Source: Streptomyces laculatispora (GTDB taxonomy: Bacteria; Actinomycetota; Actinomycetes; Streptomycetales; Streptomycetaceae). From it: a stretch of DNA of 44,001 bases. A program made the translations under genes and the position numbers. Within the stretch, counting starts at the first letter, position 1. The number at the start of each line of letters is the position of its first letter. Under the pieces are notes generated by a model. It ran no database searches. It had not been told where the DNA came from and saw only the letters and a list, made by a program, of their open reading frames with translations. The stretch is from the NCBI RefSeq assembly GCF_017353455.1, contig NZ_JAFMPZ010000066.1:1-44001 (forward strand), in the 5' to 3' direction. This document shows, in pieces, positions 20,500-36,853 of this stretch.

Positions 20500-21714
20500 T
20501 CAGCGGATGTGGCGCCCCGAGATCGCCCGCGCGATGACCAGGCGCTGGATCTCGCTGGTCCCCTCGAGGATCGTGTAGATCTTGGCGTCGCGGTACATCC
20601 GCTCGACCGGATGCTCCCGGCTGTACCCGGCGCCGCCGAGGATCTGCACGGCCTTCTCCGTTGCGGACACGGCGAGTTCACCGGCGCGCAGCTTGGACAT
20701 GGAACCCTGCCCCGCGTCGAAGGTCCGGTCGTTGCGGGCCATCCAGGCGGCCTGCCAGATCAGCAGCCGCACGGACTCGATCTCGGTACGGATGTCGGCC
20801 AGCGCGAAGGCGATCGACTGGTTCTCGATGATGGGACGGCCGAACGCCTCGCGCTGTCCGGCGTACTCCAGCGCGTACTCGTACGCCGCGCGCGCGATGC
20901 CCAGCGCCTGGGCGCCGACGGTGGGGCGGCTGACCTCGAAGGTCGCCATCGCCGCCTGCCCCTTGGCGTTGCCGCCCTCGCGGGCGCGGGCGAGCCGGGC
21001 GTCCAGCTTCTCCTTTCCGCCGAGCAGACAGTGCCCCGGGACCCGGACGTCGTCCAGAAAGACGTCCGCTGTGTGCGAGGCGCGCAGGCCGAGCTTCTTG
21101 ATGGTGCGGCCCGCCTCCAGGCCCTTCGTGGCGGGCGGCACGATGAACGCGGCCTGCCCGCGGGCGCCGAGCGCCGGGTCGACCGAGGCGACGACCACAT
21201 GGATCCCGGCGATCCCGCCGTTGGTGATCCACGCCTTCTGGCCGGAGAGCACCCACTCGTCCGCGGCCTCGTCGTAACGGGCCTTCGTGGCCATGGCGGA
21301 GACATCCGAACCGGCCTGTGGTTCGGAGACGCAGAACGCCGCCACCTTGGGGTCGTCCTCGTCGCCATAGCACTGCGGAACCCACTCGGCGAGCTGGTCC
21401 GGTGTGCCGGAGGCGAAGATCCCGGCCACGGCGAGGGAGGTGCCGAAGAGTGCCATGCCGATTCCGGCATCGCCCCAGAACAGTTCCTCGTTGGCTATCT
21501 GGAGGGAGAGCCCTGTGGGGTCGCCGTACATGTCGGCCAGCGACTCGAACCCGTACAGGCCGATCCGGGCCGCTTCCTGGATGACCGGCCAGGGGGTCTC
21601 CTCGCGGGCGTCCCATTCGGCGGCTGCCGGGCGCACCACCTGGGCGGCGAAGCCGTGCACCCAGTTGCGGAGGTCCTGCTGCTCCTCGGTGAGGGCGAGG
21701 GAGAAGTAGCTCAT
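20500..21714 (-). CDS. Acyl-CoA dehydrogenase
   Basis: FAD-dependent enzyme of 404 residues that would introduce an alpha,beta double bond into an acyl-CoA. The FAD/substrate region CVSEPQAGSDVSAMATKA, WITNGGIAGIHVV and the C-terminal AKIYTILEGTSEIQRLVIAR carry the conserved features, including the catalytic Glu in LEGTSE. Start ATG 21714 lies four bases after the end of the SCP2 gene, so the two form an operon. The chain length of its substrate cannot be told. In steroid-degrading actinobacteria such enzymes act in side-chain or ring oxidation, but the sequence does not prove that here. Confidence 0.92.
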   Translation of the reverse strand: MSYFSLALTEEQQDLRNWVHGFAAQVVRPAAAEWDAREETPWPVIQEAARIGLYGFESLADMYGDPTGLSLQIANEELFWGDAGIGMALFGTSLAVAGIFASGTPDQLAEWVPQCYGDEDDPKVAAFCVSEPQAGSDVSAMATKARYDEAADEWVLSGQKAWITNGGIAGIHVVVASVDPALGARGQAAFIVPPATKGLEAGRTIKKLGLRASHTADVFLDDVRVPGHCLLGGKEKLDARLARAREGGNAKGQAAMATFEVSRPTVGAQALGIARAAYEYALEYAGQREAFGRPIIENQSIAFALADIRTEIESVRLLIWQAAWMARNDRTFDAGQGSMSKLRAGELAVSATEKAVQILGGAGYSREHPVERMYRDAKIYTILEGTSEIQRLVIARAISGRHIR

Positions 21715-21718
21715 CGGC

Positions 21719-22192
21719 TCAGGCCTTCGGGATGTCGAAGTACCGGGTGAGGCCCGAGGCGAGGCCGACGTCGCCGGCCACCTTCAGCTTGCGCATCATG
21801 AACATCGTGACGGGATTGCCGTTGCCGGAGACCAGTTTGAGGAACTCGGCGTCCCCCATCACCAGGGTCGTGCGCGGTTCGGCCTCGGAGCGGCCCTCGC
21901 TGACGGTGCAGCTGCCGTCCGCGATCGAGGTCTCGAAAACCGCGTCGGTGTCCCCGGTGATCTTCCAGCGGATCAGCGCGTTGAGCTGTCCCGCGGCGTC
22001 CGGGCGGAACTGCTGCCTCATCCGGCCGAAGACCTCACCGAGCACCCGGGTGCGCAGTTCACCGTGCATGACCTCGCCGAGCTGCTTGGCGGACAGACCC
22101 TTCACGATCCGGGCGAACTCCGGCGGGGAGACGGCCGCGAAGTCGAGTGCGGCCAGTTCACCGGTGAGGTTGCCGCTGCTGTTGTCGGCCAC
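21719..22192 (-). CDS. SCP2 sterol-transfer-domain protein
   Basis: Protein of 157 residues with an SCP2-like lipid-binding fold, seen in ALIRWKITGDTDAVFETSIADGSCTV and the C-terminal LKLVSGNGNPVTMFMMRKLKVAGDVGLASGLTRYFD. Such domains bind lipids or acyl-CoAs in the cytoplasm. The start is GTG 22192, and its ribosome-binding site (AAGGAA) lies at the edge of an inverted-repeat box, so regulator binding would probably block expression. It heads the operon with the acyl-CoA dehydrogenase. Confidence 0.88.
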   Translation of the reverse strand: MADNSSGNLTGELAALDFAAVSPPEFARIVKGLSAKQLGEVMHGELRTRVLGEVFGRMRQQFRPDAAGQLNALIRWKITGDTDAVFETSIADGSCTVSEGRSEAEPRTTLVMGDAEFLKLVSGNGNPVTMFMMRKLKVAGDVGLASGLTRYFDIPKA

Positions 22193-22555: not shown

Positions 22556-22707
22556 GGGGGTTCCCTCTCGAATGGTGGCCAGGAGGTCGTGCGGTACGGC
22601 CGCCGGGCGGGCGGCCGACTCCTCCATGTGTACGGGACGCAGTTCCGGGTTTCTCGTTGAGAACGTCTCCGTGTGGCAACCGTTTGGGAGTGACCGGGTA
22701 TTTCGCC

Positions 22708-22773: not shown

Positions 22774-23988
22774 CTACAGGGCGGATTCCTGACTCCGGGC
22801 CTGCAGTTGCAGCGCCCGCAGTACCGCCTCGGTGGAGAACCTGCTCTCGGGGTCGACCAGTTGCTCGCCGAAGATGGACTCCAGGTTGCGCATGCGGTAG
22901 CGGACGGTCTGCGGGTGCACATCCAGGAGTTCGCCCATGTGGGCCGCGGTGCCGCGGGTGTCGAGCCAGATGCGCAGTGTCTCCACCAGCCGCTCCCGGC
23001 GGGTGGCGCTGATCGCGGCGATGGGCGCGAGTTCGCGCTGGGCGAGCTGGTCCAGGAGGACCGGGTCGGACAGCAGCCACAGCGTGATCAGGTGGTCCTC
23101 GCAGAGGACGAACGGCGCGTCGTCGATGACGCCCGTGTCGACGAGTTCGAGGATCCTCCTGGCCCAGCGGATCGAGTCCGAGGCCAGAGCGGTGGGGACG
23201 GTCAGCCCGATCGCGGCGCGGGTGCCGAGGAGCGACTGGTCGAGCATGGATCTTCGCGCGTCGTCGAGGGGCCCCGGGATCAGTAAGTGCGGCTGGGGAT
23301 CGCTGAGATCGGCCAGTACGTCTCGGTCGGCGCTGACCCGGTCGAGCCCGGCGGGGGCGCGCACCGCGACGAGGGTGACCTCCTTGGGCAGTGTCCACCC
23401 GGTCTGCTCGCACAGCTCGGCGATGGCGGAACGGGGGACGGGGCGCCCGGCCAGGATCAGGTGCAGCAGACGCCGGCGCATGGCCTCGCCCTGTTCGCCG
23501 CTCTGGGACTGCACCTCCAGGAACCCCTCGCGGGAGAGCGATTCGAGCTCGTCTATGTAGGTGAAGAGCGCGTCGGCGAAACTGAGCATCAGGGTCGGCG
23601 AGAAGTTGTAACTGCGGCCGACCTTCTTCGCCCGCCGCAGTGCGACGCGGGCCCCGAGCCGATAGGCGCCCTGAAGCGTTTCCATGGTGCGGCCTTCATA
23701 TGCCTCGAACCGTCCGAACCGGCGGCACATGTCGTCACGCAGTGATGTCGATGTGGACGGTTCGGCGACCAGGTCCACGAACGAGGAGAGGCTCTGTTCG
23801 ACGCCGACCCGGATGGCATGGCCATTGGGGCCGCTGAGAAGACGCGCGTATTCCGGATAGGCCCGGGTGACCTCGACGCCGATCTCCTTGATGAGACTCG
23901 GGAGTTCGGGCCGCATGATCGCGGCGAACTCCTGGGGAAGCGGTCCCAGCGGATCCCCCGTGTCCAATGGCGAAATGACTTTCGGCAT
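22774..23988 (-). CDS. PucR-family transcriptional regulator with a TTA codon
   Basis: Regulator of 404 residues. The C-terminal PucR helix-turn-helix is clear (TLRIWLDTRGTAAHMGELLDVHPQTVRYRMRNLE). The N-terminal half has a helical RsbRD-like region (SLIKEIGVEVTRAYPEYARLL, YEGRTMETLQGAYRLGARVALRRA). The start is ATG 23988 with GGGGA upstream; the frame remains open beyond it but loses coding character. Codon 235 is TTA (23284-23286), so full-length protein should require the bldA leucyl-tRNA and appear late in growth. It diverges from three secreted-protein genes and the mce operon, which it may control. Homologues near actinobacterial mce loci make this reasonable, but it is inference. Confidence 0.88.
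   Translation of the reverse strand: MPKVISPLDTGDPLGPLPQEFAAIMRPELPSLIKEIGVEVTRAYPEYARLLSGPNGHAIRVGVEQSLSSFVDLVAEPSTSTSLRDDMCRRFGRFEAYEGRTMETLQGAYRLGARVALRRAKKVGRSYNFSPTLMLSFADALFTYIDELESLSREGFLEVQSQSGEQGEAMRRRLLHLILAGRPVPRSAIAELCEQTGWTLPKEVTLVAVRAPAGLDRVSADRDVLADLSDPQPHLLIPGPLDDARRSMLDQSLLGTRAAIGLTVPTALASDSIRWARRILELVDTGVIDDAPFVLCEDHLITLWLLSDPVLLDQLAQRELAPIAAISATRRERLVETLRIWLDTRGTAAHMGELLDVHPQTVRYRMRNLESIFGEQLVDPESRFSTEAVLRALQLQARSQESAL
23284..23286 (-). promoter_or_regulatory. In-frame TTA (bldA-dependent) codon in pucR
   Basis: Codon 235 of the frame starting at 23988 is TTA, in the segment PHLLIPGP. It is the only TTA I found in this gene, and together with the transglycosylase codon one of only two in the whole window. 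Confidence 0.9.
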
Positions 23989-24349
23989 GACGTGTCCCCT
24001 TGCTCTCCGGCGCCCGGTGGGGGTGAGGCGGTGGGGGACCGCGCTCCCACGAACCGACAGGTGCGTATCAAGTCCGCGATGAAGATAGACCAAGTCAGCG
24101 GCCATGCGCACCACTTGTGCAAGATCGAAGTGCAAGGTGCACACACTTCCGCCCTGTTGCGGGGCTCCGGCGCAGGTGGGGTGGGAGTGGTCAATTTCGG
24201 ACAACAGTCGAGAGTGTGGCTGGTACCACCATGTACGGGCGTCGGCGAAGTCCGGACGACCGGCCGGACCGGGGCCGTCCTCCAGCCGGTTGAGCGGCGT
24301 CCGGTCCGGACGGCCGGCCCGGGCCGGGAAATTGCGCACCAAGTGACAA

Positions 24350-24378
24350 TTGATCTGAGCCGTTTAGTGACCTACGGA
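24350..24378 (+). promoter_or_regulatory. Candidate promoter for the first secreted protein
   Basis: TTGATC and TACGGA are separated by 17 bases. Transcription would begin near 24385 and leave a leader of about 210 nt starting with the hairpin at 24391-24416. The -10 element matches the TAnnnT consensus only partly. Confidence 0.35.
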
Positions 24379-24390
24379 TGACAAAAACAG

Positions 24391-24416
24391 CTGCTGGCGA
24401 GAATCTTCGCCAGCAG
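24391..24416 (+). other. Perfect 10-bp hairpin in the leader
   Basis: CTGCTGGCGA pairs exactly with TCGCCAGCAG across the loop GAATCT. There is no downstream T-tract and no gene ends nearby on this strand. It could be an operator, a 5'-end RNA stabiliser or an attenuator. Confidence 0.55.
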
Positions 24417-24595: not shown

Positions 24596-25210
24596 GTGCG
24601 TAATGCCCTCAAGAAGATCGCCGTCGCCACCGGCGTGGCTTCCGTCGCCGTCGTGCTCGGGGCCACCCAGGCCATGGCGATCCCCGCCACCACATGGACC
24701 GTCGCGCCCAACCCGGCCCCGTTCACGGCTGTCTCGACCAACACGGTCCTGTCGGTGAGCGGGATTCCGCTCACCTGCCCGACGGCGGGCGCGAGCGGAT
24801 CCGCGTTCAGCGCCACCGGCAACCCCGCCACCGTCGGCAACATCACCTCGGCCACCTTCGGCACGACGGCAAGCCCGTGCACGAGTGCTCTCGGCCCGGT
24901 GACGCCGGTCGCCACGACCACGCCGGCCTGGCAGCTCGTGGCGCAGGACTACGCCTCCGGTGTGACGACCGGCTACATCAAGAACATCCAGGCCAAGCTC
25001 ACGGTCCTCACCTGCACCTTCAACGTCACGGGTGAGGTCAACGCGACGTACACCAACAGCACCAAGAAGCTGGCCGTCTCCAACAGCACCCGCCAGCTGA
25101 CCGTCTCGGGTGCCACCGCCGCGTGTGCCGGCATCGTCGCCAACGGAGCCCACCCGACCTTCACGGGCACCTACAGCGTCACCGGGATCACGAGCATTGT
25201 CGGCAGCTGA
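24596..25210 (+). CDS. Secreted protein of unknown function (first of three before mce)
   Basis: Exported protein of 204 residues. A Sec signal peptide (RNALKKIAVATGVASVAVVLGATQAMA) is followed by a Thr/Ser/Val-rich beta-strand domain with four cysteines (in LTCPT, SPCTS, LTCTF and AACAG), likely two disulfides. No catalytic motif or membrane helix is seen. The start is GTG 24596 with GGAGG ten bases upstream. It is the first gene reading away from pucR towards the mce operon. A hairpin follows it at 25234-25270. A role in binding lipid substrate or the Mce complex outside the membrane is a guess from position. Confidence 0.82.
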   Translation: MRNALKKIAVATGVASVAVVLGATQAMAIPATTWTVAPNPAPFTAVSTNTVLSVSGIPLTCPTAGASGSAFSATGNPATVGNITSATFGTTASPCTSALGPVTPVATTTPAWQLVAQDYASGVTTGYIKNIQAKLTVLTCTFNVTGEVNATYTNSTKKLAVSNSTRQLTVSGATAACAGIVANGAHPTFTGTYSVTGITSIVGS

Positions 25211-25233
25211 CGGACTGCCGGACAGTCGAACCA

Positions 25234-25270
25234 GCAGACCGCACCGCGGGATTCCTGCCGTGCGGTCTGC
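25234..25270 (+). terminator. Hairpin between the first and second secreted genes
   Basis: GCAGACCGCAC pairs perfectly with GTGCGGTCTGC (11 pairs, 15-base loop with partial inner pairing). It lies between the stop at 25210 and the ribosome-binding site of the next gene, so it may end most transcripts and let a fraction read on. Confidence 0.65.
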
Positions 25271-25297
25271 ACCGTCGATGGAAGGGAATGACGAAGC

Positions 25298-26815
25298 ATG
25301 ATGACGCGCGGCACAACGGGGCGGAGCCGTGGGCGTGCGACGGCACGGAGCGGAGCCGTTCTGGCCGCGGTCCTCATGGCCGGAATGATCCCGGGTGCGC
25401 AGGCATCCGCCGGTGGTCGTGACGTTCGCATCGATGTGAAGTACGGCTGCGACTTTCCTTCCGGGGCCAAGAAGGTCGCGGTCCGGGTGTCCGCGACGGT
25501 TCCGGAGGAGGCCGCGGTCGACCAGCCCGTTCAGCTCAGCGACGTGAGCACCGAGCTGACCCTGCCCGAGGCCGGACTGCCGGACCTGGCCGACGTGGGG
25601 ACGGCCGGCGTCGAGGTGGAGACGCAACTGACCATGGGCGTGGCGCAGGGTGACCACACCGCCTCGACCGTGTGGATCGGGACCACCGGTGATCCGGTGG
25701 CCGTCCCGGATACGGGGGAGTTCACCTTCACCTCCTCCGGAGCCGTTCCCTCGGTGACCGCCGGCTCGTCCGGCGACCTCACCTTCACGGCGGGGAAACT
25801 GACCGCACTGCTGACCTCGCCGAAGCCGGACAGCGCGTCCGCCGAGCCCTCGGCCGAGCCCGCGGCCGTACTGCTGACGTGCACTCCGGAGCCGGACCAG
25901 GACCTGGCACTCGGAAGCGTGCCGGTCGCCGGCGACCCGCAATGGCCTTCGCCGGAGCCCTCCGGGACCGAGGAGGGAAAGGCCGCCGGAAGCAGCGGAC
26001 CCGATCGTGACGCCGGGACTCCGAAGGTGGGCGATCCGGCGAATTCCGTCCTCCAGGACGGGAAGGCACCGCGCTGCGTGGGTGACCCGGAGGACCAGTT
26101 CAGCCTGAACGCCTATGTCACCGGCTACGCGAACGTCGCCAAGCTCAAGAGCGCCACGCTGTTCCCGGTCGCGTGCACGCAGATCGAGCAGGGCGCGACC
26201 GAGATCAAGATCCTGGACGGCCTTGTCCATCTGTTCCAGGATTCTACGGCGACGCTGGACTATCAGGGCAAGCCGCAACTGCCTCCGGCCACAGGCACGT
26301 TCCTGACGTTCGGCTTCATGCCGACGACCGCGACCCTGGAGATGACCCAGATCCCACCGGCCGCCGGTCCGGACGGCAAACCGGCGCCCAATATCCACTC
26401 CGACCTGAAGATCCTCGGCCCGGGCAACAGCGAGGGCAAGACCACCATCGAAATCCAGCTCCAGTTGCGGCTGCACGACGTGAAGGTCAACGGCGTCGCC
26501 CTGGACGTCGGCGCCAACTGCCGTACGGAGCGTCCGTTCACCCTGCCGCTGCAGGGAGACATGGTTCTCAAGGACGGGGTTCAGACCGGCTACACACTGG
26601 TCACGGGCGGTGTGCTCACCGGCCAGGTCACCCTTCCGCCGTTCTCGGGGTGCGGTGTCGGTGAGGACCTGGACGATCTCTTCACCGCCTCCATATCGGG
26701 TGTTCCCGGCGCCGTGAAGCAGGTCCAGGCGGCGCCCTGCGCGGCGGCACAGCAATCGCCGACCGTGTGCACGCAGGACAGCCAGCCGGTTCAGGTTCCC
26801 AAGCCGCAGCGCTGA
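25298..26815 (+). CDS. Secreted protein with DUF6801-like N-terminal domain
   Basis: Exported protein of 505 residues. A Sec signal peptide ends near GAQASA (residues about 30-37). Residues about 45-200 form a beta-rich domain starting VKYGCDFPSGAKKVAVRVSA, which resembles DUF6801. A low-complexity Pro/Ser/Glu linker (about 200-255) follows. Then comes a second beta-rich domain with VTGYANVAKLKSATLFPVACTQIE, LKILGPGNSEGKTTIEIQLQL and a Cys-rich end. Cysteines are spaced for disulfides. The start is ATG 25298; ATG 25301 is equally possible. Function unknown. It is placed with two other secreted proteins upstream of mce on the same strand. Confidence 0.82.
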   Translation: MMTRGTTGRSRGRATARSGAVLAAVLMAGMIPGAQASAGGRDVRIDVKYGCDFPSGAKKVAVRVSATVPEEAAVDQPVQLSDVSTELTLPEAGLPDLADVGTAGVEVETQLTMGVAQGDHTASTVWIGTTGDPVAVPDTGEFTFTSSGAVPSVTAGSSGDLTFTAGKLTALLTSPKPDSASAEPSAEPAAVLLTCTPEPDQDLALGSVPVAGDPQWPSPEPSGTEEGKAAGSSGPDRDAGTPKVGDPANSVLQDGKAPRCVGDPEDQFSLNAYVTGYANVAKLKSATLFPVACTQIEQGATEIKILDGLVHLFQDSTATLDYQGKPQLPPATGTFLTFGFMPTTATLEMTQIPPAAGPDGKPAPNIHSDLKILGPGNSEGKTTIEIQLQLRLHDVKVNGVALDVGANCRTERPFTLPLQGDMVLKDGVQTGYTLVTGGVLTGQVTLPPFSGCGVGEDLDDLFTASISGVPGAVKQVQAAPCAAAQQSPTVCTQDSQPVQVPKPQR

Positions 26816-26894
26816 TTCCCTTCCCGTCCTGCTGCTTTCTCCACCGGAACCGAATCATTCCATTCCGCTCAGCCCACCATGAATTGAGGGAGTA

Positions 26895-27851
26895 ATGAGA
26901 GCTGTCCCGAAGAGATGGCGCACCGGCCTGCTCGCCGCCGGCGCCGCCGCGGTGGTCGCGATTCCGCTGACACCTCTTTCCGCCTCGGCGGCCGTCACCG
27001 CCGCGAACCTCAACGGGCACTGGGCGCCCTTCTCCCGCTGCCCCGTCGACGATCCCGCCATGCTCGCGGCGGACGGCCAGGACTTCGTGGCGTCGTGTGT
27101 GTCCTCGTACTCGCCCAGCGGTGCCATCAAGCTGGGCAGTACGGAGGCCACCACCGGCGCCAACGACATGCAGTTCGGTGTCATCCAGGACACGGCCGCC
27201 GGTACGTTCAAGGTCGTTCCGCCCGCGGGCGGGGCGATCGTCGGTGCGCCGACGTCGATACCCGGCGGGCTGCTCGGGCTCATGTGCCCCAGTGACATTC
27301 CGGTCGTCACCGCCGTCTGCCAGCAGATCACCGACGTCAGTCTGAACAAGGTGAAGGCGACGGTGGAGTCCGCCGGTACGCCCACCGAGTTCAATCTGCC
27401 GGCCGGGCTGAGCACCGGGCAGCCGATCGTGAAGCTGCCCGTGCGGATACACCTGGAGAACCCGCTCCTCGGCTCCAACTGCTACATAGGCTCGGCCGCG
27501 GACCCGGTGATTCTGCGTCCGCAGAACACCACTGCTCCGGCCATCGCCATCCAGCGGTTCGACGGTGACGGCACGCCCAACGCCACCGAGGGCGCGATGC
27601 TCAGGTTCGCGCTCACCGGAAACAACCAGGGCGACACCACGTTCTCCGTGCCGAAGGCCACCGGCTGCGGTCTGGGCGGAATCCTGAGCTGGGCGGTGAA
27701 CCTGAAGACGGGCCTGCCGTCCACCTCCGGGAACAACCACCTCACGCTGAACAACGCCTCGACGTACAGCGGTGCGCTCACCGCCCCGGGGCTCGTCCTT
27801 CCCAACGACGGGAAGGTGCTTTCCCAGTACTGGCACTCCGCGGTGAAGTAA
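26895..27851 (+). CDS. Secreted protein of unknown function (third before mce)
   Basis: Exported protein of 318 residues with a signal peptide ending near LSASAAV (residues 1-33) and a beta-rich mature part. Features include NGHWAPFSRCPVDDPAMLAADGQ, six or more cysteines (for example LMCPSD, AVCQQI, SNCYIG, TGCGLGG) and a C-terminal end VLSQYWHSAVK. GAGGGAG lies five bases before the ATG at 26895. I do not recognise a named domain. It may be envelope-associated. A strong terminator follows at 27916-27965, separating it from the mce operon. Confidence 0.82.
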   Translation: MRAVPKRWRTGLLAAGAAAVVAIPLTPLSASAAVTAANLNGHWAPFSRCPVDDPAMLAADGQDFVASCVSSYSPSGAIKLGSTEATTGANDMQFGVIQDTAAGTFKVVPPAGGAIVGAPTSIPGGLLGLMCPSDIPVVTAVCQQITDVSLNKVKATVESAGTPTEFNLPAGLSTGQPIVKLPVRIHLENPLLGSNCYIGSAADPVILRPQNTTAPAIAIQRFDGDGTPNATEGAMLRFALTGNNQGDTTFSVPKATGCGLGGILSWAVNLKTGLPSTSGNNHLTLNNASTYSGALTAPGLVLPNDGKVLSQYWHSAVK

Positions 27852-28379: not shown

Positions 28380-28396
28380 TTGTCACTCGGTGACAA
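28380..28396. promoter_or_regulatory. Perfect inverted repeat TTGTCAC-TCG-GTGACAA upstream of mce
   Basis: Two exact seven-base arms flank TCG. It lies about 50 bases upstream of the candidate -35 element and 176 bases upstream of the ATPase start, a typical activator position. The GTGACA half-site recurs in the pucR/secreted-gene intergenic region, so PucR is a candidate binder. Confidence 0.6.
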
Positions 28397-28571: not shown

Positions 28572-29567
28572 ATGGGAATCGAAGTAGTCGTTGAAGGCCT
28601 TACGAAATCCTTCGGTAAACAGAACATCTGGCAGGATGTCAGCCTCACTCTGCCCGCCGGTGAAGTGAGCGTGATGCTCGGTCCTTCCGGTACCGGAAAG
28701 ACCGTCTTCCTGAAATCCCTCATCGGTCTGCTCAAGCCCGAGCAGGGGCGCGTACTCATCAATGGCGTCGACATGGTGAACAGCCCCGAGCGGAAGATCA
28801 TGGAGACCCGGAAGCTCTTCGGTCTCATGTTCCAGGACGGTGCGCTCTTCGGATCGATGTCGCTCTTCGACAACATCGCCTTTCCCTTGCGCGAGCACAC
28901 CCGCAAGAAGGAATCCGAAATCCGCCGGATCGTCATGGAGCGGATCGATATCGTCGGCCTTCTCGGCGACGAGGACAAACTGCCCGGCGAGATATCCGGC
29001 GGTATGCGCAAACGGGCCGGCCTGGCGCGCGCCCTCGTCCTGGACCCGCAGATCATTCTCTGCGACGAGCCGGACTCCGGGCTCGACCCGGTCCGCACCG
29101 CCTACATCTCCCAGCTGCTCATCGACCTCAACGCACAGATCGACGCGACGATGCTGATCGTCACCCACAACCTCGACATCGCGGCCACCGTCCCGGACAA
29201 CATGGGCATGCTCTTCTGCCGCAACCTCGTCACCTTCGGACCGCGCGAGGTCCTGCTGACCAGCGATCTGCCCGTCGTCTCGCAGTTCCTCTCCGGCCGC
29301 CGCGAAGGACCCATCGGCATGTCGGAGGAGAAGGACGCCGCCACGCTCGCCGCCGAGGAGGTCAACGGCTACGGGCAGGGCATCAGTTCGGCCAACGCCG
29401 TGCGCACCGTGGTCCCGCAGCTGGAGCCCTCGCCGGGCCTGCCCGTACGGCAGGGCGCGCTGCGCCGCCGGGAACGGGTCATGTCGATGATGGGGCAGCT
29501 GCCGGAGGCCGCCCGTACGGCTATCCTGAACAGCTACAGCCCGGCCGCCGGCGGTGGACGCCCGTGA
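28572..29567 (+). CDS. mceG: Mce-transporter ATPase (MceG/Mkl-like)
   Basis: Cytoplasmic ATPase of 331 residues that would power the Mce lipid importer. Walker A is GPSGTGKT (37-44), the signature motif is ISGGM (141-145, in place of LSGGQ) and Walker B is IILCDEPDSG with Asp165-Glu166; the H-loop follows in VTHNLD. About 90 residues after the ATPase core form the C-terminal extension typical of actinobacterial MceG. The start is ATG 28572 with GGGAGGG upstream. In mycobacteria mceG lies away from the mce operons and is shared; here it is the first gene of the operon and overlaps the YrbE gene by GTGA. Confidence 0.93.
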   Translation: MGIEVVVEGLTKSFGKQNIWQDVSLTLPAGEVSVMLGPSGTGKTVFLKSLIGLLKPEQGRVLINGVDMVNSPERKIMETRKLFGLMFQDGALFGSMSLFDNIAFPLREHTRKKESEIRRIVMERIDIVGLLGDEDKLPGEISGGMRKRAGLARALVLDPQIILCDEPDSGLDPVRTAYISQLLIDLNAQIDATMLIVTHNLDIAATVPDNMGMLFCRNLVTFGPREVLLTSDLPVVSQFLSGRREGPIGMSEEKDAATLAAEEVNGYGQGISSANAVRTVVPQLEPSPGLPVRQGALRRRERVMSMMGQLPEAARTAILNSYSPAAGGGRP

Positions 29568-30412
29568 CCGCCCCCATACCGGTGCGGCCCCCCGGGCCGC
29601 CCGCGGACCGGGTGCCGGAGAAGGCGCCCGAACAGAGACGCCCGACCCGGCTGTTCGCCCCGCTGCGCGAGACGGGCAGGCTCTTCACCCTTGCCGGGAC
29701 CGTGTGCCGCGAGACCTTCCGCCGGCCCTTCCAGGTGCGGGAGTTCATCGAGCAGTTCTGGTTCGTCGCCAGCGTCACCATCCTGCCCGCCGCCCTCGTC
29801 TCCATCCCGTTCGGTGCGGTCATCGCGCTCCAGGTCGGCTCCCTCACCCAGCAGCTCGGCGCCCAGTCGTTCACCGGCGGTGCCAGCGTCCTCGCCGTCA
29901 TCCAGCAGGCCAGCCCGATCATCGTGGCGCTGCTGGTCTCCGGGGCCGCCGGGTCGGCCATCTGCGCCGACCTCGGATCACGCAAGATCCGCGAGGAGCT
30001 CGACGCGATGGAGGTCATGGGCGTCTCGCCCGTCCAGCGCCTCGTCGTCCCGCGGGTGCTGGCCACCATGCTGGTGGCCGTCCTGCTGAACGGACTGGTC
30101 TCCGTCGTCGGCACCCTCGGCGGCTACTTCTTCAACGTGATCCTGCAGCACGGCACCCCCGGCGCCTATCTGTCCAGCTTCTCCGCCCTGGCCCAGCTGC
30201 CCGACCTGTACATCAGCGAGATCAAGGCCCTGATCTTCGGCTTCATCGCGGGCATCGTCGCCGCCTACCGCGGCCTCAACCCGCGCGGCGGGCCGAAGGG
30301 GGTCGGGGACGCGGTCAACCAGTCCGTCGTCATCACCTTCATGCTGCTGTTCTTCGTGAACATGGTCCTCACGGCGATCTACCTCCAGATCGTCCCCGCG
30401 AAGGGGAGCTGA
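29564..30412 (+). CDS. yrbEA: YrbE/MlaE-type permease A
   Basis: Inner-membrane permease of 282 residues of the MlaE family. A Pro-rich cytoplasmic N-terminus precedes about five or six helices, with the conserved segments FVASVTILPAALVSIPFGAVIALQ, REELDAMEVMGVSPVQRLVVPRVLA and NPRGGPKGVGDAVNQSVV. The EAMGV-type element is the coupling region for the ATPase. It dimerises with the next gene's product. The GTG start overlaps the ATPase stop. Confidence 0.94.
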   Translation: MTAPIPVRPPGPPADRVPEKAPEQRRPTRLFAPLRETGRLFTLAGTVCRETFRRPFQVREFIEQFWFVASVTILPAALVSIPFGAVIALQVGSLTQQLGAQSFTGGASVLAVIQQASPIIVALLVSGAAGSAICADLGSRKIREELDAMEVMGVSPVQRLVVPRVLATMLVAVLLNGLVSVVGTLGGYFFNVILQHGTPGAYLSSFSALAQLPDLYISEIKALIFGFIAGIVAAYRGLNPRGGPKGVGDAVNQSVVITFMLLFFVNMVLTAIYLQIVPAKGS

Positions 30413-30415
30413 CCG

Positions 30416-31219
30416 ATGTCGATGCTCAGCTGGCTCGACCGATCCGGTGACCAACTCACCTTCTACGTAAGGGCGCTGCTCTGGATCCCCAGGACCCTGC
30501 GGCGCTATCTCAAAGAGGTGCAGCGGCTCCTCGCCGAAGTCGCCTTCGGCAGCGGCGGCCTCGGCGTCGTCGGCGGCACCATCGGCGTGATGATCGCGAT
30601 GACGCTGGCCACCGGAACGGTCGTCGGCCTCCAGGGGTACGCGGCGCTCAACCAGATCGGCACCGCCGCCTTCACCGGCTTCATCTCCGCCTACTTCAAC
30701 ACCCGTGAGATCGCCCCGCTCGTCGCCGGACTCGCGCTCTCCGCGACCGTGGGAGCGGGCTTCACCGCGCAGCTCGGCGCCATGCGGATCAACGAGGAGA
30801 TCGACGGCCTGGAGGCGATGGGGGTGCGGTCCATGCCCTACCTCGTCACCACCCGCATCATCGCCGGGGTCGTCGCCATCATCCCGCTCTACGCGATCGG
30901 GCTGCTCTCCTCCTACGTCTCCTCCCGCTACGTCACCGTCCTGTTCAACGGGCAGTCGGCCGGCACCTACGACCACTACTTCAATCTGTTCCTGTCCCCG
31001 CAGGACGTGCTGCTGTCGGTGCTCAAAGTGCTGATCTTCAGCGTGATGGTGATCCTCGCGCACTGCTACTACGGCTTCCACGCCACCGGCGGACCCGCCG
31101 GGGTGGGGGTGGCGGTCGGCCGGTCGGTGCGCAACGCGATCGTGCTGATCAGCGTCACCGACTTCTTCCTCTCGCTCGCCATCTGGGGCGCCACGACGAC
31201 GGTGAAGGTGGCCGGCTGA
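30416..31219 (+). CDS. yrbEB: YrbE/MlaE-type permease B
   Basis: Second MlaE-family permease, 267 residues, beginning three bases after the first. It has the expected helices and coupling segment NEEIDGLEAMGVRSMPYLVTTRIIA, and ends with GGPAGVGVAVGRSVRNAIVLISV. With YrbEA it would form the membrane channel of the Mce importer. Its stop overlaps the mceA start by one base. Confidence 0.94.
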   Translation: MSMLSWLDRSGDQLTFYVRALLWIPRTLRRYLKEVQRLLAEVAFGSGGLGVVGGTIGVMIAMTLATGTVVGLQGYAALNQIGTAAFTGFISAYFNTREIAPLVAGLALSATVGAGFTAQLGAMRINEEIDGLEAMGVRSMPYLVTTRIIAGVVAIIPLYAIGLLSSYVSSRYVTVLFNGQSAGTYDHYFNLFLSPQDVLLSVLKVLIFSVMVILAHCYYGFHATGGPAGVGVAVGRSVRNAIVLISVTDFFLSLAIWGATTTVKVAG

Positions 31220-32532
31220 TGAACACCCGGACCACGCAGACCGCTCGCCGCAGACTCGCCGGAGTGGCCCTCCTGCTCGTGCCCGCCGTACTCATCTGGG
31301 TGTCGGTGGCCGTGTACAACAAGGACTTCACCGACGACGCGACCGTGACGGTACGGACCGCGAGCGTCGGCAACGAGATGCACGACAACGCCGATGTGAA
31401 GCTGCGCGGAGTCGTCATCGGGCAGGTCCGCGACATCTCGGCCGACGGCGAGGGCGCCCGCCTCACCCTGGCCATCCAGCCCGGCAAACTCGACCGGATC
31501 CCGGCCGACGTGACCGCCCAGATGCTGCCCACCACCCTGTTCGGCGAACGGTTCGTGGCGCTCGTACCGCCCGCCGTGCCGTCGGCGCGGACGCTGCGGG
31601 CCGGAGCCGTCATCCCGCAGGACCGCTCCAGCAACGCCATCGAACTGGAAGAGGTCCTCGACAACGTCCTGCCGCTGCTGACCGCGGTGCAGCCGGAGAA
31701 GCTCTCCGCCACCCTCAACGCGGTCTCCCAGGCACTCCGGGGACGCGGCGAGAAGCTCGGCGACACCCTCGTCAGGCTCGACGCGCACCTCCAGAAGTTC
31801 AACCCCCAGCTCCCCACGCTCAACGCCGACATCAAGGAACTCGTCAAAGTGAGCAGGGTGTACGGGGACGCCGCACCGGACGTCCTGGACGCACTCACCG
31901 ACTTCACCACCACCAGCGGCACCATCGCCGACCAGCAGGCGGAGCTCGCCGATCTCTACGGCTCCACGACCGCCTCCGCGCATGACCTCACCACGTTCCT
32001 CCAGGAGAACAAGGACAACCTGATCCGGCTCTCCGCCACGGGCAGGCCGACGCTGGAACTCCTCGCGAAGTACTCCGACGAGTTCCCCTGCACCCTGCGG
32101 ACCGTGGCCGGGTTCGTCCCGGCGATGGACAAGGCGCTCGGCAAGGGCACCGGACAGCCCGGCCTCCACGTCACCGTCAAGTCCGTGAAGTCCAAGGGGA
32201 AGTACGTGCCCGGCAAGGACACCCCGGTCTACGACGCGACCGGCGGACCGCACTGCTACTCCGTGCCGTACGTCGGCACGGCCGCGCCGACGGCCGCCGG
32301 ACGCGCTGCCGCATCGCCGGCCCCCGGCGACAAGGCGGCCGCCGGCGAGGCGGCCGGCACCGGGCCCAAGGCCACGGACACCTCTCTCGGCATGCCCAAC
32401 TCCCCGCAGGAGAGCCGGCTCGTCAACGAGCTGGTCGCTCCCTCACTGAAAGTCCAGCCGCAGACCCTGCCCGACTGGAGCAGCGTGCTCATCGGTCCGG
32501 CCTTCCGCGGCGCGGAGGTGAAGCTCAAGTGA
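31219..32532 (+). CDS. mceA: Mce protein A
   Basis: Substrate-binding subunit of the Mce lipid importer, 437 residues. One N-terminal membrane anchor (GVALLLVPAVLIWVSVAVY) precedes the MlaD-like domain (residues about 40-115, DNADVKLRGVVIGQVRDI and LPTTLFGERFVAL). A long helical region then builds the hexameric tunnel. The C-terminal tail is Ala/Pro-rich. The LPTTLFG motif and first position identify it as the A subunit. It overlaps mceB by GTGA. Confidence 0.93.
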   Translation: MNTRTTQTARRRLAGVALLLVPAVLIWVSVAVYNKDFTDDATVTVRTASVGNEMHDNADVKLRGVVIGQVRDISADGEGARLTLAIQPGKLDRIPADVTAQMLPTTLFGERFVALVPPAVPSARTLRAGAVIPQDRSSNAIELEEVLDNVLPLLTAVQPEKLSATLNAVSQALRGRGEKLGDTLVRLDAHLQKFNPQLPTLNADIKELVKVSRVYGDAAPDVLDALTDFTTTSGTIADQQAELADLYGSTTASAHDLTTFLQENKDNLIRLSATGRPTLELLAKYSDEFPCTLRTVAGFVPAMDKALGKGTGQPGLHVTVKSVKSKGKYVPGKDTPVYDATGGPHCYSVPYVGTAAPTAAGRAAASPAPGDKAAAGEAAGTGPKATDTSLGMPNSPQESRLVNELVAPSLKVQPQTLPDWSSVLIGPAFRGAEVKLK

Positions 32533-33560
32533 AGCGCCGCTCCCTCGCGGGACCGCTCGCGAAATCGATCGTCTTCATCCTGGTGACCGTCCTGGCCACC
32601 ACCGTCCTGGGGCTGTCCATCGCCAACACCGGGGTCGGTGACACCACCACGTACAAGGCGAGGTTCACCGACGCCACCGGGCTGATCGTCGGCGACAGCG
32701 TACGGATCGCCGGGGTCAAGGTCGGGCAGGTCGAGTCGATCAAGGTCGCGGACAAGCGGCTCGCCGAGGTCGGCTTCGCCGTCCGCAAGGGGCGCAGCCT
32801 CCCCGCCTCGGTGACCGCCTCGATCAAGTACCTCAACATGGTCGGCCAGCGCTACATCGACCTCGACCAGGGCGCCGGACCGGTCGGCAGGAGCTTCGAC
32901 GCCGGAGCGACCATCCCGCTCTCACGCACCACACCCGCGCTCGACCTGACCCAGCTCTTCAACGGCTTCCAGCCGCTCTTCGAAGGACTGTCCCCGCCCG
33001 ACGTCAACCAGCTCGCCGGCTCCATCGTCCAGGTGCTCCAGGGCGAGGGCGGCACCGTCGACAGCATCCTCCAGCACGTCGGCTCACTGACCTCCACGGT
33101 CGCGGCCAAGGACAAGGTGATCGGTGAGGTGATCAAGAACCTCAACACGGTCCTGAAGACCGTCAACGACCGGGAGGCCGGCTTCAACGACCTCGTCGAC
33201 ACGCTCCAGCAGCTCGTCACGGGCTTCTCCGGCGACCGCAAGCCGCTCGGACAGGCAGTCACCGCGATGGGCGCGCTGACCACCGTCACCGCCGACCTGC
33301 TCCAGGACGGACGCCAGCCCCTCAAGGACGACATCAAGCAGCTCGGGCGGCTCTCGGACCAGCTGGGCAAGGGAACCCCGCAGATCGAGAACTTCCTGAA
33401 GAAGACCCCGGCCAAGATGGAGGCGATCGGCCGCCTCGCCTCGTACGGGTCCTGGCTCAACCTCTATCTCTGCGAGGCCAGGGTCAGCGGTGTGACCACC
33501 GAGGACGGCAGCGCGCCGCCCACCGGCATCGCGATCACCCAGCCGAGGTGCCTGGCATGA
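32529..33560 (+). CDS. mceB: Mce protein B
   Basis: Mce subunit of 343 residues. An N-terminal anchor (SIVFILVTVLATTVLGLSIANTG) is followed by the MlaD domain (ATGLIVGDSVRIAGVKVGQVESI) and a helical domain, ending with two cysteines in NLYLCEARVSG and ITQPRCLA. Sequence and order match MceB. GTG start overlaps mceA; the stop overlaps mceC by ATGA. Confidence 0.93.
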   Translation: MKRRSLAGPLAKSIVFILVTVLATTVLGLSIANTGVGDTTTYKARFTDATGLIVGDSVRIAGVKVGQVESIKVADKRLAEVGFAVRKGRSLPASVTASIKYLNMVGQRYIDLDQGAGPVGRSFDAGATIPLSRTTPALDLTQLFNGFQPLFEGLSPPDVNQLAGSIVQVLQGEGGTVDSILQHVGSLTSTVAAKDKVIGEVIKNLNTVLKTVNDREAGFNDLVDTLQQLVTGFSGDRKPLGQAVTAMGALTTVTADLLQDGRQPLKDDIKQLGRLSDQLGKGTPQIENFLKKTPAKMEAIGRLASYGSWLNLYLCEARVSGVTTEDGSAPPTGIAITQPRCLA

Positions 33561-34576
33561 GAATCAAACCCCTGCGGGAACGCAACCCCGTCGCCATCGG
33601 CATCGCCGGACTCCTCGTCCTGGCCCTCATCGGCTTCGGCGCCTACCGCGCCGACTCGCTGCCCTTCATCGGCGGCGGCACCACCTACACCGCCGACTTC
33701 ACCGAGTCCGCCGGGCTCGGCGACGGCGACGAGGTACGGATCGCCGGCGTCAAGGTCGGCGAGGTCACCGGAGTCTCGCTCGACGGCGCCAGGGTGAAGG
33801 TCAGCTTCCGGGTCAAGGACGCCTGGATCGGCAACTCCTCCACCGTGGGCATCGCCATCAAGACCCTGCTGGGCGACAAGTACCTCGCCGTCGACCCGCT
33901 CGGCACGGGGCCGCAGGACCCGGACCGGCGCATCACGGTGAGCCGTACCACCTCTCCGTACGACGTCACCCAGGCCTTCAACGGACTCGGCGAGACCATC
34001 GGCGAGATCGACACCAAGCAGCTCGCCAAGAGCTTCGAGACGATCTCCGCCACCTTCAAGGACTCGCCGCCCGATGTGAAGAGCGCCGCCGACGGGCTCT
34101 CCGCACTCTCCAGGACCGTGTCCCAGCGCGACGCCCAGCTGGCCACGCTCCTCAAGGGCAGCAAGCAGCTGACCAAGACCCTCGCCCACAAGAAGAGCAG
34201 CTTCGAGACCCTGCTGGAGGACGGCAACCTGCTCCTCGGCGAGATCCAGGCCCGGCGGGACTCCATCCATCTGCTGCTCACCGGCACCCGGGACCTCGGC
34301 ACCCAGCTCACCGGCCTGGTCGCGGACAACAACAAGCAGCTGAAGCCCACCCTGGAGTCGCTCGGCCGGGTCACCGCCGTCCTGGTGAAGAACCGCAAGA
34401 GCCTCGACAAGGTGCTGTCGCTGGCGGGTTCCTACAACCGGCTCGTCGGCAACACGATCGGCAACGGCCGCTGGCTCGACAACTACGTCTGCGGGGTCGT
34501 CCCGAGGGACTACCTCCCCGCCGGCACGCCCCCGGCGACCGGATGCATGCCACCCAAGCAGCAAGGCGGCCGCTGA
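33557..34576 (+). CDS. mceC: Mce protein C
   Basis: Mce subunit of 339 residues. An N-terminal anchor (VAIGIAGLLVLALIGFGAY) is followed by the MlaD domain (SAGLGDGDEVRIAGVKVGEVTGV) and a long helical part (KSSFETLLEDGNLLLGEIQARRDSI). ATG 33557 gives an ATGA overlap with mceB; a GTG three codons earlier is less likely. mceD begins one base after its stop. Confidence 0.93.
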   Translation: MRIKPLRERNPVAIGIAGLLVLALIGFGAYRADSLPFIGGGTTYTADFTESAGLGDGDEVRIAGVKVGEVTGVSLDGARVKVSFRVKDAWIGNSSTVGIAIKTLLGDKYLAVDPLGTGPQDPDRRITVSRTTSPYDVTQAFNGLGETIGEIDTKQLAKSFETISATFKDSPPDVKSAADGLSALSRTVSQRDAQLATLLKGSKQLTKTLAHKKSSFETLLEDGNLLLGEIQARRDSIHLLLTGTRDLGTQLTGLVADNNKQLKPTLESLGRVTAVLVKNRKSLDKVLSLAGSYNRLVGNTIGNGRWLDNYVCGVVPRDYLPAGTPPATGCMPPKQQGGR

Positions 34577-34577
34577 C

Positions 34578-35693
34578 ATGAGAATCACGCGCATCGTCGG
34601 CATCGGCGCCGGACTCGCCGTCGTGGCCGTCGCGGCCACCTCCGGCGTGCTGGCCATGGACGACGAGGGCAGGACGACCGTCACCGCCTACTTCGACCAG
34701 GCCACCGGCGTGTACGCCGGATCGGACCTGCGGATCCTCGGAGTGAAGGTCGGCACCGTCGAGTCGGTGCGGCCGAAGGGAGAGGAGGTCGAGGTCAGGC
34801 TCCGCGTCGACAAGGGCGTCAAGGTGCCCAAGGACGTGCATGCCGTGGTCGTCGCCCCCAGCCTGGTCGCCGACCGGTACGTCCAGCTCGCCCCCGCGTA
34901 CAAAGGGGGACCGGTGCTGGCGGACGAGGCCGAACTGCCCGCTTCACACAACGCGACCCCGGTCGAGGTCGATCAGCTGTACGCCTCCATCACGGAACTC
35001 TCCACCGCGCTCGGGCCCGACGGGGCCAACGCCGACGGCGCGCTGGCGAAGCTCCTGGACACCGGAGCGAAGAACCTCGACGGCAACGGAAAGGCGATCG
35101 GGGACTCCATCGAGCAGTTCGGCAAGGCGACGAAGACCCTCGACAAGAGCAGCGGGAACCTCTTCGGCACCCTGTCCTACCTGCAGACCTTCACCACCAT
35201 GCTGAAGGACAACGACGGCAACGTCCGCGAGGCCGAACAGCAGCTCAACTCGGTCACCGGATTCCTCGCCGACGACAAGTCGAACCTCAGCGCGGCCCTG
35301 AAGGAACTGGGCACCGCCCTCGGCCAGGTCAAGACCTTCATCAAGGACAACCGAGGCGTCCTGAAGGCGAACGTGGACGCCCTGGTGCCGGTCACCCAGA
35401 CCCTGGTCGACCAACGGGCCTCGCTCGCGGAGTCGATGGACACGCTGCCGCTCGCCGCGGACAACGTGATCAAGGCCTACGACCCGTTGAACCGCACCAT
35501 CAACGGCCGCACCAACCTCAACGAGCTCTCCATGGGCGGACCACTCACGGACGAGTCCGCGGGCCTGAGCGGACTCTCGCCCGTGGACGCCGCCCGCCAG
35601 CAGGCGCTGCCCTCGCTGCCGCTGCCCGCCGTGGGCACCGTCTACGGCACCCCCGACAAGACCGCCACGCAGAAGAAGGGGGCGAAGCGATGA
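34578..35693 (+). CDS. mceD: Mce protein D
   Basis: Mce subunit of 371 residues. The N-terminal anchor is short and uncharged (IVGIGAGLAVVAVAATSGVLA). The MlaD domain (ATGVYAGSDLRILGVKVGTVESV) leads into an extended helical domain with many Lys/Asp-rich repeats. The tail is Pro/Ala/Lys-rich. Order and sequence match MceD. It overlaps mceE by ATGA. Confidence 0.93.
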   Translation: MRITRIVGIGAGLAVVAVAATSGVLAMDDEGRTTVTAYFDQATGVYAGSDLRILGVKVGTVESVRPKGEEVEVRLRVDKGVKVPKDVHAVVVAPSLVADRYVQLAPAYKGGPVLADEAELPASHNATPVEVDQLYASITELSTALGPDGANADGALAKLLDTGAKNLDGNGKAIGDSIEQFGKATKTLDKSSGNLFGTLSYLQTFTTMLKDNDGNVREAEQQLNSVTGFLADDKSNLSAALKELGTALGQVKTFIKDNRGVLKANVDALVPVTQTLVDQRASLAESMDTLPLAADNVIKAYDPLNRTINGRTNLNELSMGGPLTDESAGLSGLSPVDAARQQALPSLPLPAVGTVYGTPDKTATQKKGAKR

Positions 35694-36853
35694 GCCGCGT
35701 ACCGCGCCGACCCGGCGCCCGCGCGACCGGCGTCGCCGCCGTGCTCGCGGTGGGCGTCGGCCTGGCCCTGATCGTCACCACGGTCGACCTGCCGACGTTC
35801 ACCGGCATCGACCAGGTGCCGCTGCCCGGCGGCGCGGACCTCGGCGACCACCCGTACGAGATCACCGCCGAGTTCGGGGACGTGCTCAGCCTCGCCCCGC
35901 AGTCCTCGGTGAAGGTCAACGACGTGGCCATCGGCCGGGTCACCAAGATCTCGCTGGCCCCGGGCAGCTGGAACGCCAAGGTCACCATGCGGGTCAACGG
36001 GAGGATCAGACTCCCCGCGAACGCGTACGCGCACCTGGAACAGTCCAGCCTGCTCGGCGAGAAGTACATCCAGCTCTCGCCCCCCGCATCCGGCACCGCC
36101 AAGGGCGCCCTCGCCGACGGGGACCGCATCCCGCTCGCCCGGACCAACCGGAACCCGGAGGTCGAGGAGGTGTTCGGCGCGCTGTCGATGCTCCTCAACG
36201 GCGGTGGCATCAACCAGCTGAAGACCATCACCACCGAGCTCAACAAGGCGCTGACCGGACAGGAACCCCAGGTCCGCTCCATGCTCAGCCGGGTCAACAC
36301 CCTCGTCACCGACCTGGACGACCACAAGGGGGACATCACCGACGCCCTCGACGGCGTCAACCGGCTGTCCGCCACCCTCGCCACCCGCAAACAGGACGTC
36401 GGCACGGTCCTCACCAAACTCAGCCCCGGCATGAAGGTCCTGGAGAAGCAGCGCGGCTCGCTCATGACGATGCTGCGCTCGCTCGACACGCTCTCCACCG
36501 TCGCCGTCGACACGGTGAACAAGAGCAAGGCCGACATGGTCGCCGACCTCAAGGCCCTCGCACCCACCCTCCAGGCCCTCGCCGACTCCGGCCAGGACCT
36601 GCCCGACTCGCTCCAGGTGCTGCTGACCTACCCGTTCACCGATGAGGTGCTGCGCGGCGTGAAGGGCGACTACCTCAACGTCTACCTGGATGTGACGGCG
36701 CTGCCCGGCACCCAGATCATTCCGCCGCTCGACCCGGCCGGCGGCACCACACCCCCGGCCGTCCAGGGCAGCACGGCCCAGAAGTCCGGTGCGGCCCTGC
36801 CGCTGCCGCTTCCCTCGGTCACGGGGCCGGCCACGAAGGGGAGCAACCGATGA
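35690..36853 (+). CDS. mceE: Mce protein E, without a lipobox cysteine
   Basis: Mce subunit of 387 residues. The start MSRVPRRPGARATGVAAVLA leads into a hydrophobic anchor and then TGIDQVPLPGGADLGDHPYEI, equivalent to the CGWRGLNSLPLPG region of mycobacterial MceE. Mycobacterial MceE proteins are lipoproteins (LprK type), but here no cysteine occurs at or near that position, so it should be anchored by an uncleaved helix. The MlaD domain (LAPQSSVKVNDVAIGRVTKI) and helical domain are intact. Coupled to mceF by ATGA. Confidence 0.92.
   Translation: MSRVPRRPGARATGVAAVLAVGVGLALIVTTVDLPTFTGIDQVPLPGGADLGDHPYEITAEFGDVLSLAPQSSVKVNDVAIGRVTKISLAPGSWNAKVTMRVNGRIRLPANAYAHLEQSSLLGEKYIQLSPPASGTAKGALADGDRIPLARTNRNPEVEEVFGALSMLLNGGGINQLKTITTELNKALTGQEPQVRSMLSRVNTLVTDLDDHKGDITDALDGVNRLSATLATRKQDVGTVLTKLSPGMKVLEKQRGSLMTMLRSLDTLSTVAVDTVNKSKADMVADLKALAPTLQALADSGQDLPDSLQVLLTYPFTDEVLRGVKGDYLNVYLDVTALPGTQIIPPLDPAGGTTPPAVQGSTAQKSGAALPLPLPSVTGPATKGSNR

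Follow-up and report, generated by a model that had tools for sequence, protein, structure and literature searches.

The question raised by this locus is why three genes for predicted secreted proteins should lie between a PucR-family regulator and an mce operon. The window, as the whole stretch of DNA analysed is called here, is a single 44,001 bp contig of Streptomyces laculatispora, with positions given on the forward strand. Its three consecutive + strand genes are P1 (24596..25210, GTG start, 204 aa, 4 cysteines), P2 (25298..26815, ATG start, 505 aa), and P3 (26895..27851, ATG start, 318 aa, 6 cysteines), separated by 87 bp and 79 bp; for P2 the ATG at 25301 is as good a start as that at 25298. 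P2 is made up of a DUF6801 domain (residues 48-206), a linker, and an unnamed C-terminal domain, P2C (26060..26815, +; about residues 263-500). An earlier note had reported three consecutive same-strand genes of 204, 505, and 318 residues between pucR and mce, with which the open reading frames (ORFs) and the HTH_30, ABC_tran, and MlaD matches agree, and had proposed that the proteins form an mce-linked layer for lipid capture or delivery. A dedicated partnership of the set with one Mce subtype, probably controlled by PucR, is well supported. That P1-P3 are secreted cargo-capture and hand-over proteins of that subtype, co-expressed under a PucR-family regulator, is a proposal with an even chance of being correct.

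The divergent regulator gene (22774..23916, -; HTH_30 E 1.2e-14) has an uncertain start; its ORF is open to 24342, and the listed ORF of 22774-24342 is probably over-long at the start. The mce operon begins 720 bp after P3 with an MceG-type ATPase (28572..29567, +; ABC_tran E 4.1e-28), followed by the YrbEA and YrbEB permeases (29564..31219, +; YrbEA from 29564, YrbEB from 30416, named from position and use as queries) and MceA-F (31219..38115, +), within which lie all six MlaD matches of this genome. An ATPase, two YrbE, and six MCE-domain proteins identify the operon as that of an Mce transport system.

Association with one mce lineage

Across a sample of 245 genomes of the order, with the best 6-12 candidates scored per genome, YrbEA is present at E <= 1e-60 in 103, at 79-100% identity in 63 (clade A) and at 76% or less in 40. 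The co-occurrence with mce that was anticipated is seen for each gene: P2C is in 62 of the 63 clade-A genomes vs 0 of the 182 others, P1 in 62/63 vs 2/182, and a close P3 in 57/63 vs 0/182. The single genome that lacks P2C (G134) has its locus on two contigs, and all six clade-A genomes without P3 keep P1, P2, and PucR. None of the 40 genomes with the less similar YrbEA has P2C or a close P3; one, G262, has P1 on another contig. The second P1 exception, in G131, matches at E 3.7e-9. The gene in G262 (C98:8903-9487) is clearly related to P1 (E 1e-49) and does not share a contig with YrbEA, which makes it the best counterexample to strict linkage. Where P3 and YrbEA share a contig they are 1.6-4.7 kb apart in 55 of 55 pairs, two different-contig pairs having been set aside. 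Frequent occurrence away from mce, which the earlier note took as a sign against the linkage, is found for DUF6801 and for distant P3 relatives only (E 4e-30 to 1e-5, in thirteen of the 182 others that have no closer one); it is seen neither for close P3 nor, in the order sample, for P2C, and for P1 it is limited to the two exceptions.

The set is also retained through rearrangement. At the 80 named loci, the best 80 of 160 P3 relatives, P1 is present at 80, P2 at 78, PucR at 79, and mce at 78; the two loci that lack mce (L088, L105) are on short contigs, which break off close to the set. These loci include Actinomadura alba, Actinoallomurus, Mangrovactinospora, and a metagenome-assembled genome of the Streptosporangiaceae. 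Their genes are arranged in at least four orders: P3 may precede or follow P1-P2, and mce may run in the same direction as the set or against it. As the 80 loci were chosen by P3, the reverse test rests on the order sample.

It might be that the link is regulatory or ecological only, one signal such as a plant or fungal lipid inducing the importer together with unrelated adhesins or coat proteins. An unrelated function would be expected to escape mce more often, and P2C is absent from 182 of 182 genomes that lack clade-A mce, which makes this explanation unlikely, even though DUF6801 and distant P3 relatives are found without mce and in 29 of the 55 measured pairs P3 and YrbEA are encoded on opposite strands (vs 26 with both on one strand). 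An inverted repeat after P3 (27913..27968, +; 26-nt arms, 4-nt loop, 88% complementary) fits it as well, since this terminator-like sequence stands between P3 and mceG and P1-P3 and mce may therefore be on separate transcripts. Terminator-like sites in the window as a whole number 3, vs 2.8 in shuffles, and so are not enriched.

Mapping of mce loci within the genus places the set in one of two lineages. Of 61 relatives in the first sample, 37 are of the genus; MlaD-domain genes are found in 16 of these 37 genomes, P3 in 8, and P1 in 9, the last two always in mce-positive genomes. P3 matches at 31-35% identity also turned up in 11 genomes of family f3, none with MlaD. Maps of 17 genus loci resolve into clade A, where MceG is 84-92% identical to that of the window (not called at one locus), and clade B, where it is 67-69% identical. 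PucR, P1, and P2 are present at 9/9 clade-A loci and P3 at 8/9; one of these loci (G017) is on two contigs, and in G023 a divergent P1, missed by clustering, was found by a separate search. None of these four genes adjoins mce at any of the 8 clade-B loci. The suggestion that such proteins are needed wherever a mycolate outer membrane is missing is thus contradicted, as the clade-B Streptomyces have the same kind of envelope. At the clade-B loci (L039-L046) the neighbours, named by eye, are sigma-factor-like and lytic-transglycosylase-like, each at 7/8, and a further conserved gene block (clusters c16-c21) adjoins at 4/8.

In a YrbEAB tree, with an arbitrary root and most loci chosen because they bear the set, one branch (support 100/99) parts nine loci without it (clade B and G037) from fifty with it. 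In the YrbE tree the window lies nearest to L063 (Streptomyces sp. A0642, 98% identity). The absence of the set from clade B, and of P2C and close P3 from the low-identity mce genomes, means that the set belongs to one mce subtype. Streptomyces Mce systems are split into two kinds, and results from one are not transferable unchecked to the other.

DUF6801 was considered as a marker of mce and rejected. It is found in 12 of the 61 genomes, four of which (G014, G038, G039, G042) have no MlaD matches, and G019 and G029 have additional copies that are not at mce. Taken by itself DUF6801 is not specific to mce, and P2C is the mce-linked part of P2.

Outside Streptomyces, P2C again keeps company with mce. 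The class sample of 379 genomes includes 81 with YrbEA at E <= 1e-100; P2C is present in 27, of which 26 are among these 81 and 1 (G393) among the other 298, a distribution that also argues against a merely regulatory link. Twenty loci were fetched from 18 non-Streptomyces P2C genomes, most of the loci from family f28, which would be the Nocardioidaceae. YrbEA is 1.2-7.5 kb from P2C at 14 of the 20, and P1 is present at 10 of these 14. P1 and P2C accompany mce in the Thermomonosporaceae and, by inference, the Nocardioidaceae. Seven mce-positive genomes of family f6 in the same sample have no P2C; this family, which includes G054 with 69 MlaD matches, may be the Mycobacteriaceae. P2C is the most constant element and P1 a usual one, whereas P3 and the DUF6801 fusion have been added in sets of the Streptomyces/Thermomonosporaceae type. 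The P2C profile found nothing in two of the fetched loci, L178 and L179. In these two g33 genomes, P2-like proteins of ~500 aa were noted in a similar setting (L178 9500-11002, L179 9702-11201), unlinked to mce on the stretch, with a DUF6801-type profile match in L179 only and not in L178.

A shared operator and the PucR regulator

Two exact copies of GTGACAANTGATC are present in the 44 kb, at 24343 in the gap between PucR and P1 and at 28390 before mceG. At the former position is a half-operator, GTGACAATTGATC (24343..24355), resembling the half-site upstream of mceG, while the 28390 site is surrounded by the operator-like dyad TTGTCACTCGGTGACAA (28380..28396), which starts 192 bp before mceG and has no second exact copy in the 7.3-Mb assembly. 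A tolerance of two mismatches adds a single match to GTGACAANTGATC, and as three or more matches arose in 19 of 100 shuffles the window alone proves no operator.

The 79 clade-A regions upstream of mceG, those of the window and 78 named loci, match TTGTCA-N5/6-TGACAA at 12 of 12 bases in 60 cases and at 11 or more in 70, with 0 of 395 dinucleotide shuffles above 10 bases. Because the motif was derived from this related set, the independent tests are other loci. Seven further clade-A loci match at 12 bases (four), 11 (two), and 7 (one), and 13 other loci at 12 (six), 11 (four), and 8-10 (three); nine clade-B-type loci score at most 7. Genome-wide, exact dyads number seven in 6 of 9 clade-A Streptomyces genomes and are confined to the clade-A mce locus, including two in G023, where one is in the mceG-P3 gap and the other in the P1-PucR gap. 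No exact dyad was found in the genomes G007 and G009 (clade B) or G013 (no mce at E <= 1e-60). Of the 17 dyads in four Nocardioidaceae genomes, 14 are within 17 kb of a YrbEA. When the pattern was reversed as a control, 1 of 17 genomes had a match.

The placement of the dyads suggests what binds them. Seven of the fetched non-Streptomyces loci hold 19 exact dyads, none inside a called gene; counted once each, and within 350 bp, 7 are before mceG, 7 before P1/P2C, 4 before PucR, and 1 before another gene. As dyads precede PucR genes, and genes adjoining them in L187, L190, L198, and L202 carry the PucR HTH_30 domain, PucR is the likely binder of TTGTCA-N5/6-TGACAA, and the mce, P1/P2C, and PucR genes are probably one regulon under its control. 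The motif offers a way to find that regulon and perhaps the cargo. In L190 (1501-1517; genome G347), away from mce, a dyad is flanked by a PucR gene and by a divergent gene for a FAD_binding_2 flavoprotein, which is a possible further regulon member and hint at the cargo. Within the PucR-P1 gap of the window, a perfect 10-bp inverted repeat (24391-24416) is followed by a T run on the - strand and resembles a terminator or an operator.

The proteins, their predicted folds, and the proposed role

P1, P2, and P3 each start with a basic-hydrophobic leader, read from the sequence, and all three are predicted to be secreted. Among the homologues at loci L050-L135 a hydrophobic leader is present in 98/98 P1, 85/88 P2, and 78/81 P3, counts that are biased because the choice of start codon favoured a leader. 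Past residue 25 the same homologues have 4 cysteines in 97/98 P1, 8 in 81/88 P2, and 6 in 81/81 P3, the P2 exceptions including fragments and paralogues. These even numbers suggest disulfides, and with the leaders they agree with the earlier description of the proteins as exported and cysteine-containing. P1 is duplicated in several loci (L037 13618-15085, L070, L078, L102, L174, L184), and in L184 there is a 471-aa ORF with P1 at its C-terminus.

The statement that only P2 resembles a named domain was correct. P2 matches DUF6801 (PF20611) in Pfam at 74.3 bits vs a gathering score of 26, as do 47 of 48 aligned P2 relatives at E <= 0.1, and P1, P2C, and P3 match no family above a marginal level. 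P1 has no Pfam match, P3 has sub-threshold ones only (a Reovirus model at E 0.039, a repeat model at E 0.51), and in Pfam scans of relatives (50 P1, 40 P3, 14 P2C, and 48 whole P2) no family other than DUF6801 is found in more than 4 members. P2C relatives have no NCBIfam match, and the LmeA model matched 2 of the 48 P2 relatives (best E 0.0032). Sequence searches of the PDB gave no match for single P2 or P3, nothing below E 0.29 with profiles, and for the alignment of P1 relatives matches at E 0.5-10, mostly on the leader. A common origin of P1, P2, and P3 was considered and found no support, profile-profile comparison giving leader or short chance matches only (probabilities 14, 3, and 10%).

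The beta-rich character claimed for all three proteins is upheld for P2 and P3 by AlphaFold models (P3 pLDDT 86.1, pTM 0.79; P2 pLDDT 84.1, pTM 0.58, and good for its separate parts), in which P3 and P2C are predicted small beta-barrels. By VIA-align, P3 resembles NspA (Z 8.9, rmsd 3.3, 148 aligned), an OmpA model (Z 8.2, rmsd 4.1, 157 aligned), and polyisoprenoid-binding 1wub (Z 7.2, rmsd 4.3, 138 aligned), and P2C resembles DynF (Z 9.0, rmsd 4.4, 168 aligned) and OmpW (Z 8.9, rmsd 3.6, 162 aligned). The strands of P3 and P2C alternate in hydrophobicity and are modestly hydrophobic overall, and their aromatic content is low (5.3%), which makes a transmembrane barrel of the outer-membrane type unlikely and suits a soluble one. 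The modelled folds are compatible with a carrier of hydrophobic cargo.

The DUF6801 domain is closest to 3lso, a putative membrane-anchored protein of Corynebacterium diphtheriae (Z 11.4, rmsd 3.2, 148 aligned), with lower-ranked likeness to arrestin-like and adhesin-type sandwiches. This would fit P1-P3 serving as a cell-wall scaffold or dock that, without touching cargo, secures the tip of the needle formed by Mce within the thick peptidoglycan of a cell that has no outer membrane, and the strict mce linkage and shared operator would fit any obligate partner. Such a role seems improbable, as Lipobox-like and LPXTG-like patterns are each found in 1 of 81 P3 homologues and in no P1 or P2, Pfam scans of P1-P3 and their relatives show no peptidoglycan-binding domain, and the clade-B Streptomyces mce has no such neighbouring partner.

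Capture and hand-over explains the observations most economically; its rivals are anchoring and co-regulation alone. P1 would solubilise or hold a hydrophobic substrate outside the membrane, perhaps as PraA/PraB do. From there the substrate would be taken across the cell wall by the barrel domains of P2 and P3, with their interior as the putative ligand site, and delivered to the tip of the MceA-F tunnel, which would pass it inward to YrbEAB-MceG. A long-chain acyl or sterol-like cargo is pointed to by neighbouring genes for an acyl-CoA dehydrogenase, an SCP2 sterol-transfer-like protein, and a P450; the first two (20500..22192, -) are each present at 45 of 80 loci. These same two genes suggest catabolism, and actinobacterial Mce systems are taken as importers in the accessible text of PMC9882608 and PMC7593942, so that lipid export, with P1-P3 receiving the lipid outside and building a surface layer, is very improbable, even if sequence cannot tell the direction of transport and P1-P3 would be outside the membrane either way. 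Between the SCP2 and PucR genes a small conserved ORF (22292-22627) was found at 58 of 80 loci. Further off in the window, an 887-aa protein with beta-helix, F5/8 type C, and CBM6 domains (9717-12380) lies near a solute-binding protein, DUF2264, and a family 4 glycosidase.

Several observations weigh against capture and hand-over. With only the best 6-12 candidates scored in each genome of the order sample, absence there is not absolute, and in G208 and G171 P2C or P1 reads through one TGA. Outside Streptomyces, 4 of the 14 mce-linked loci lack P1 and all 14 lack P3, and no mce is present on the fetched stretch at 6 of the 20 loci; three of these (L176, L181, L186) run to the end of a contig, and the other three (L178, L179, L185) appear to be unlinked. 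The closely related loci from which the dyad was derived are also those in which it was first counted; it has no exact copy genome-wide in clade-A G005, G015, and G027, and in G594, where P2C is beside two mce loci, its four copies are elsewhere. For VIA-align a best Z of 7-8 is usual even without a clear match, so that the barrel values of 8-9 are just above the level typical of models without one, and with neither the P2 nor the P3 model did Foldseek find a PDB entry at E <= 0.001, a result not taken to mean that related folds do not exist. The link to one mce lineage and the shared operator were observed; from these, and from the compatible folds, we infer putative lipid binding and the capture role that the earlier note proposed, which may involve contact with MceA-F.

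Comparison with known systems

The marginal NCBIfam matches of P1 relatives are to PraA and PraB (NF041561/NF041562). PraB matched 1 of 50 relatives (E 0.0011) and 2 of 30 (best E 8.2e-5) in overlapping sets, and PraA one relative of each set, while the P1 of the window has no PraA/PraB match in NCBIfam. A Pfam match to a coronavirus protein model at E 4.1e-4, clearly a chance event, was obtained for one of the 50, so that E values near 1e-4 can be chance among P1 relatives. Two tblastn searches of plasmids for a PraA/PraB reference sequence, with P1 relatives as queries, gave one chance match (E 3) and none, respectively. The likeness is a lead rather than membership, and its weakness is a further point against the role proposed for P1. 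In the accessible text of PMC4542665, PraA and PraB of Pseudomonas activate alkane oxidation with an alkane-solubilising effect, in connection with an alkane-induced extracellular protein. They are likewise secreted proteins that aid assimilation of a hydrophobic substrate, but that text mentions no mce for them.

In the Mla pathway, the periplasmic shuttle MlaC serves an MCE-type ABC lipid transporter. If P1-P3 act as proposed, they too would be soluble carriers beyond the inner membrane serving a transporter of this type, but there are three distinct secreted families here and no Gram-negative outer membrane, and the MlaC domain is absent from Pfam scans of P1-P3 and of 138 aligned members, those of the window included. 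The small up-and-down barrels predicted for P3 and P2C resemble YceI/lipocalin-like and other 8-stranded barrels (1wub, DynF, NspA, OmpW) in overall form, but at Z 7-9 and 5-10% identity only. DUF6801 (PF20611) is shared as the N-terminal domain of P2 and, unlike P2C, also occurs away from mce.

To our knowledge, no secreted cargo-delivery layer has been assigned to an actinobacterial Mce system. In the accessible literature, with most subscription journals outside its scope, there is no mention of DUF6801, PucR and an mce operon are named together in one paper, a FurA study, and among the papers listed no title or opening of an abstract describes such a set. The accessible parts of PMC1810536 and PMC9882608 give Mas/Mam, LucA, and LucB as accessory proteins of actinobacterial Mce systems. 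P1-P3 would be Mce accessory proteins in the same sense, but LucA and LucB are membrane proteins, and identity of P1-P3 with Mas/Mam was rejected, as they fall in separate BLAST clusters from mam1-4 (named by position after mceF). As far as the accessible texts go, the mce operon of Streptomyces coelicolor is called mce6 (PMC1810536), and that of Nocardioides simplex, not used as evidence here, is induced by cholesterol and lithocholate and is in the KstR regulon (PMC7593942).

According to the accessible text of the preprint PMC9882608, Mce1 substrates may enter the portal directly or via "additional unknown factors" in the mycobacterial outer membrane. A wider and more doubtful proposal is that non-mycolate actinobacteria have an extracellular relay for one kind of Mce import, with P1 as solubiliser, P2C and P3 as carriers, and PucR acting via TTGTCA-N5/6-TGACAA. 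If true, this relay would be the counterpart of those factors in cells without a mycolate outer membrane. As the set follows one Mce lineage, survives rearrangements, and shares an operator, it offers, in harmless soil bacteria, a genetically tractable candidate for the cargo-delivery step.

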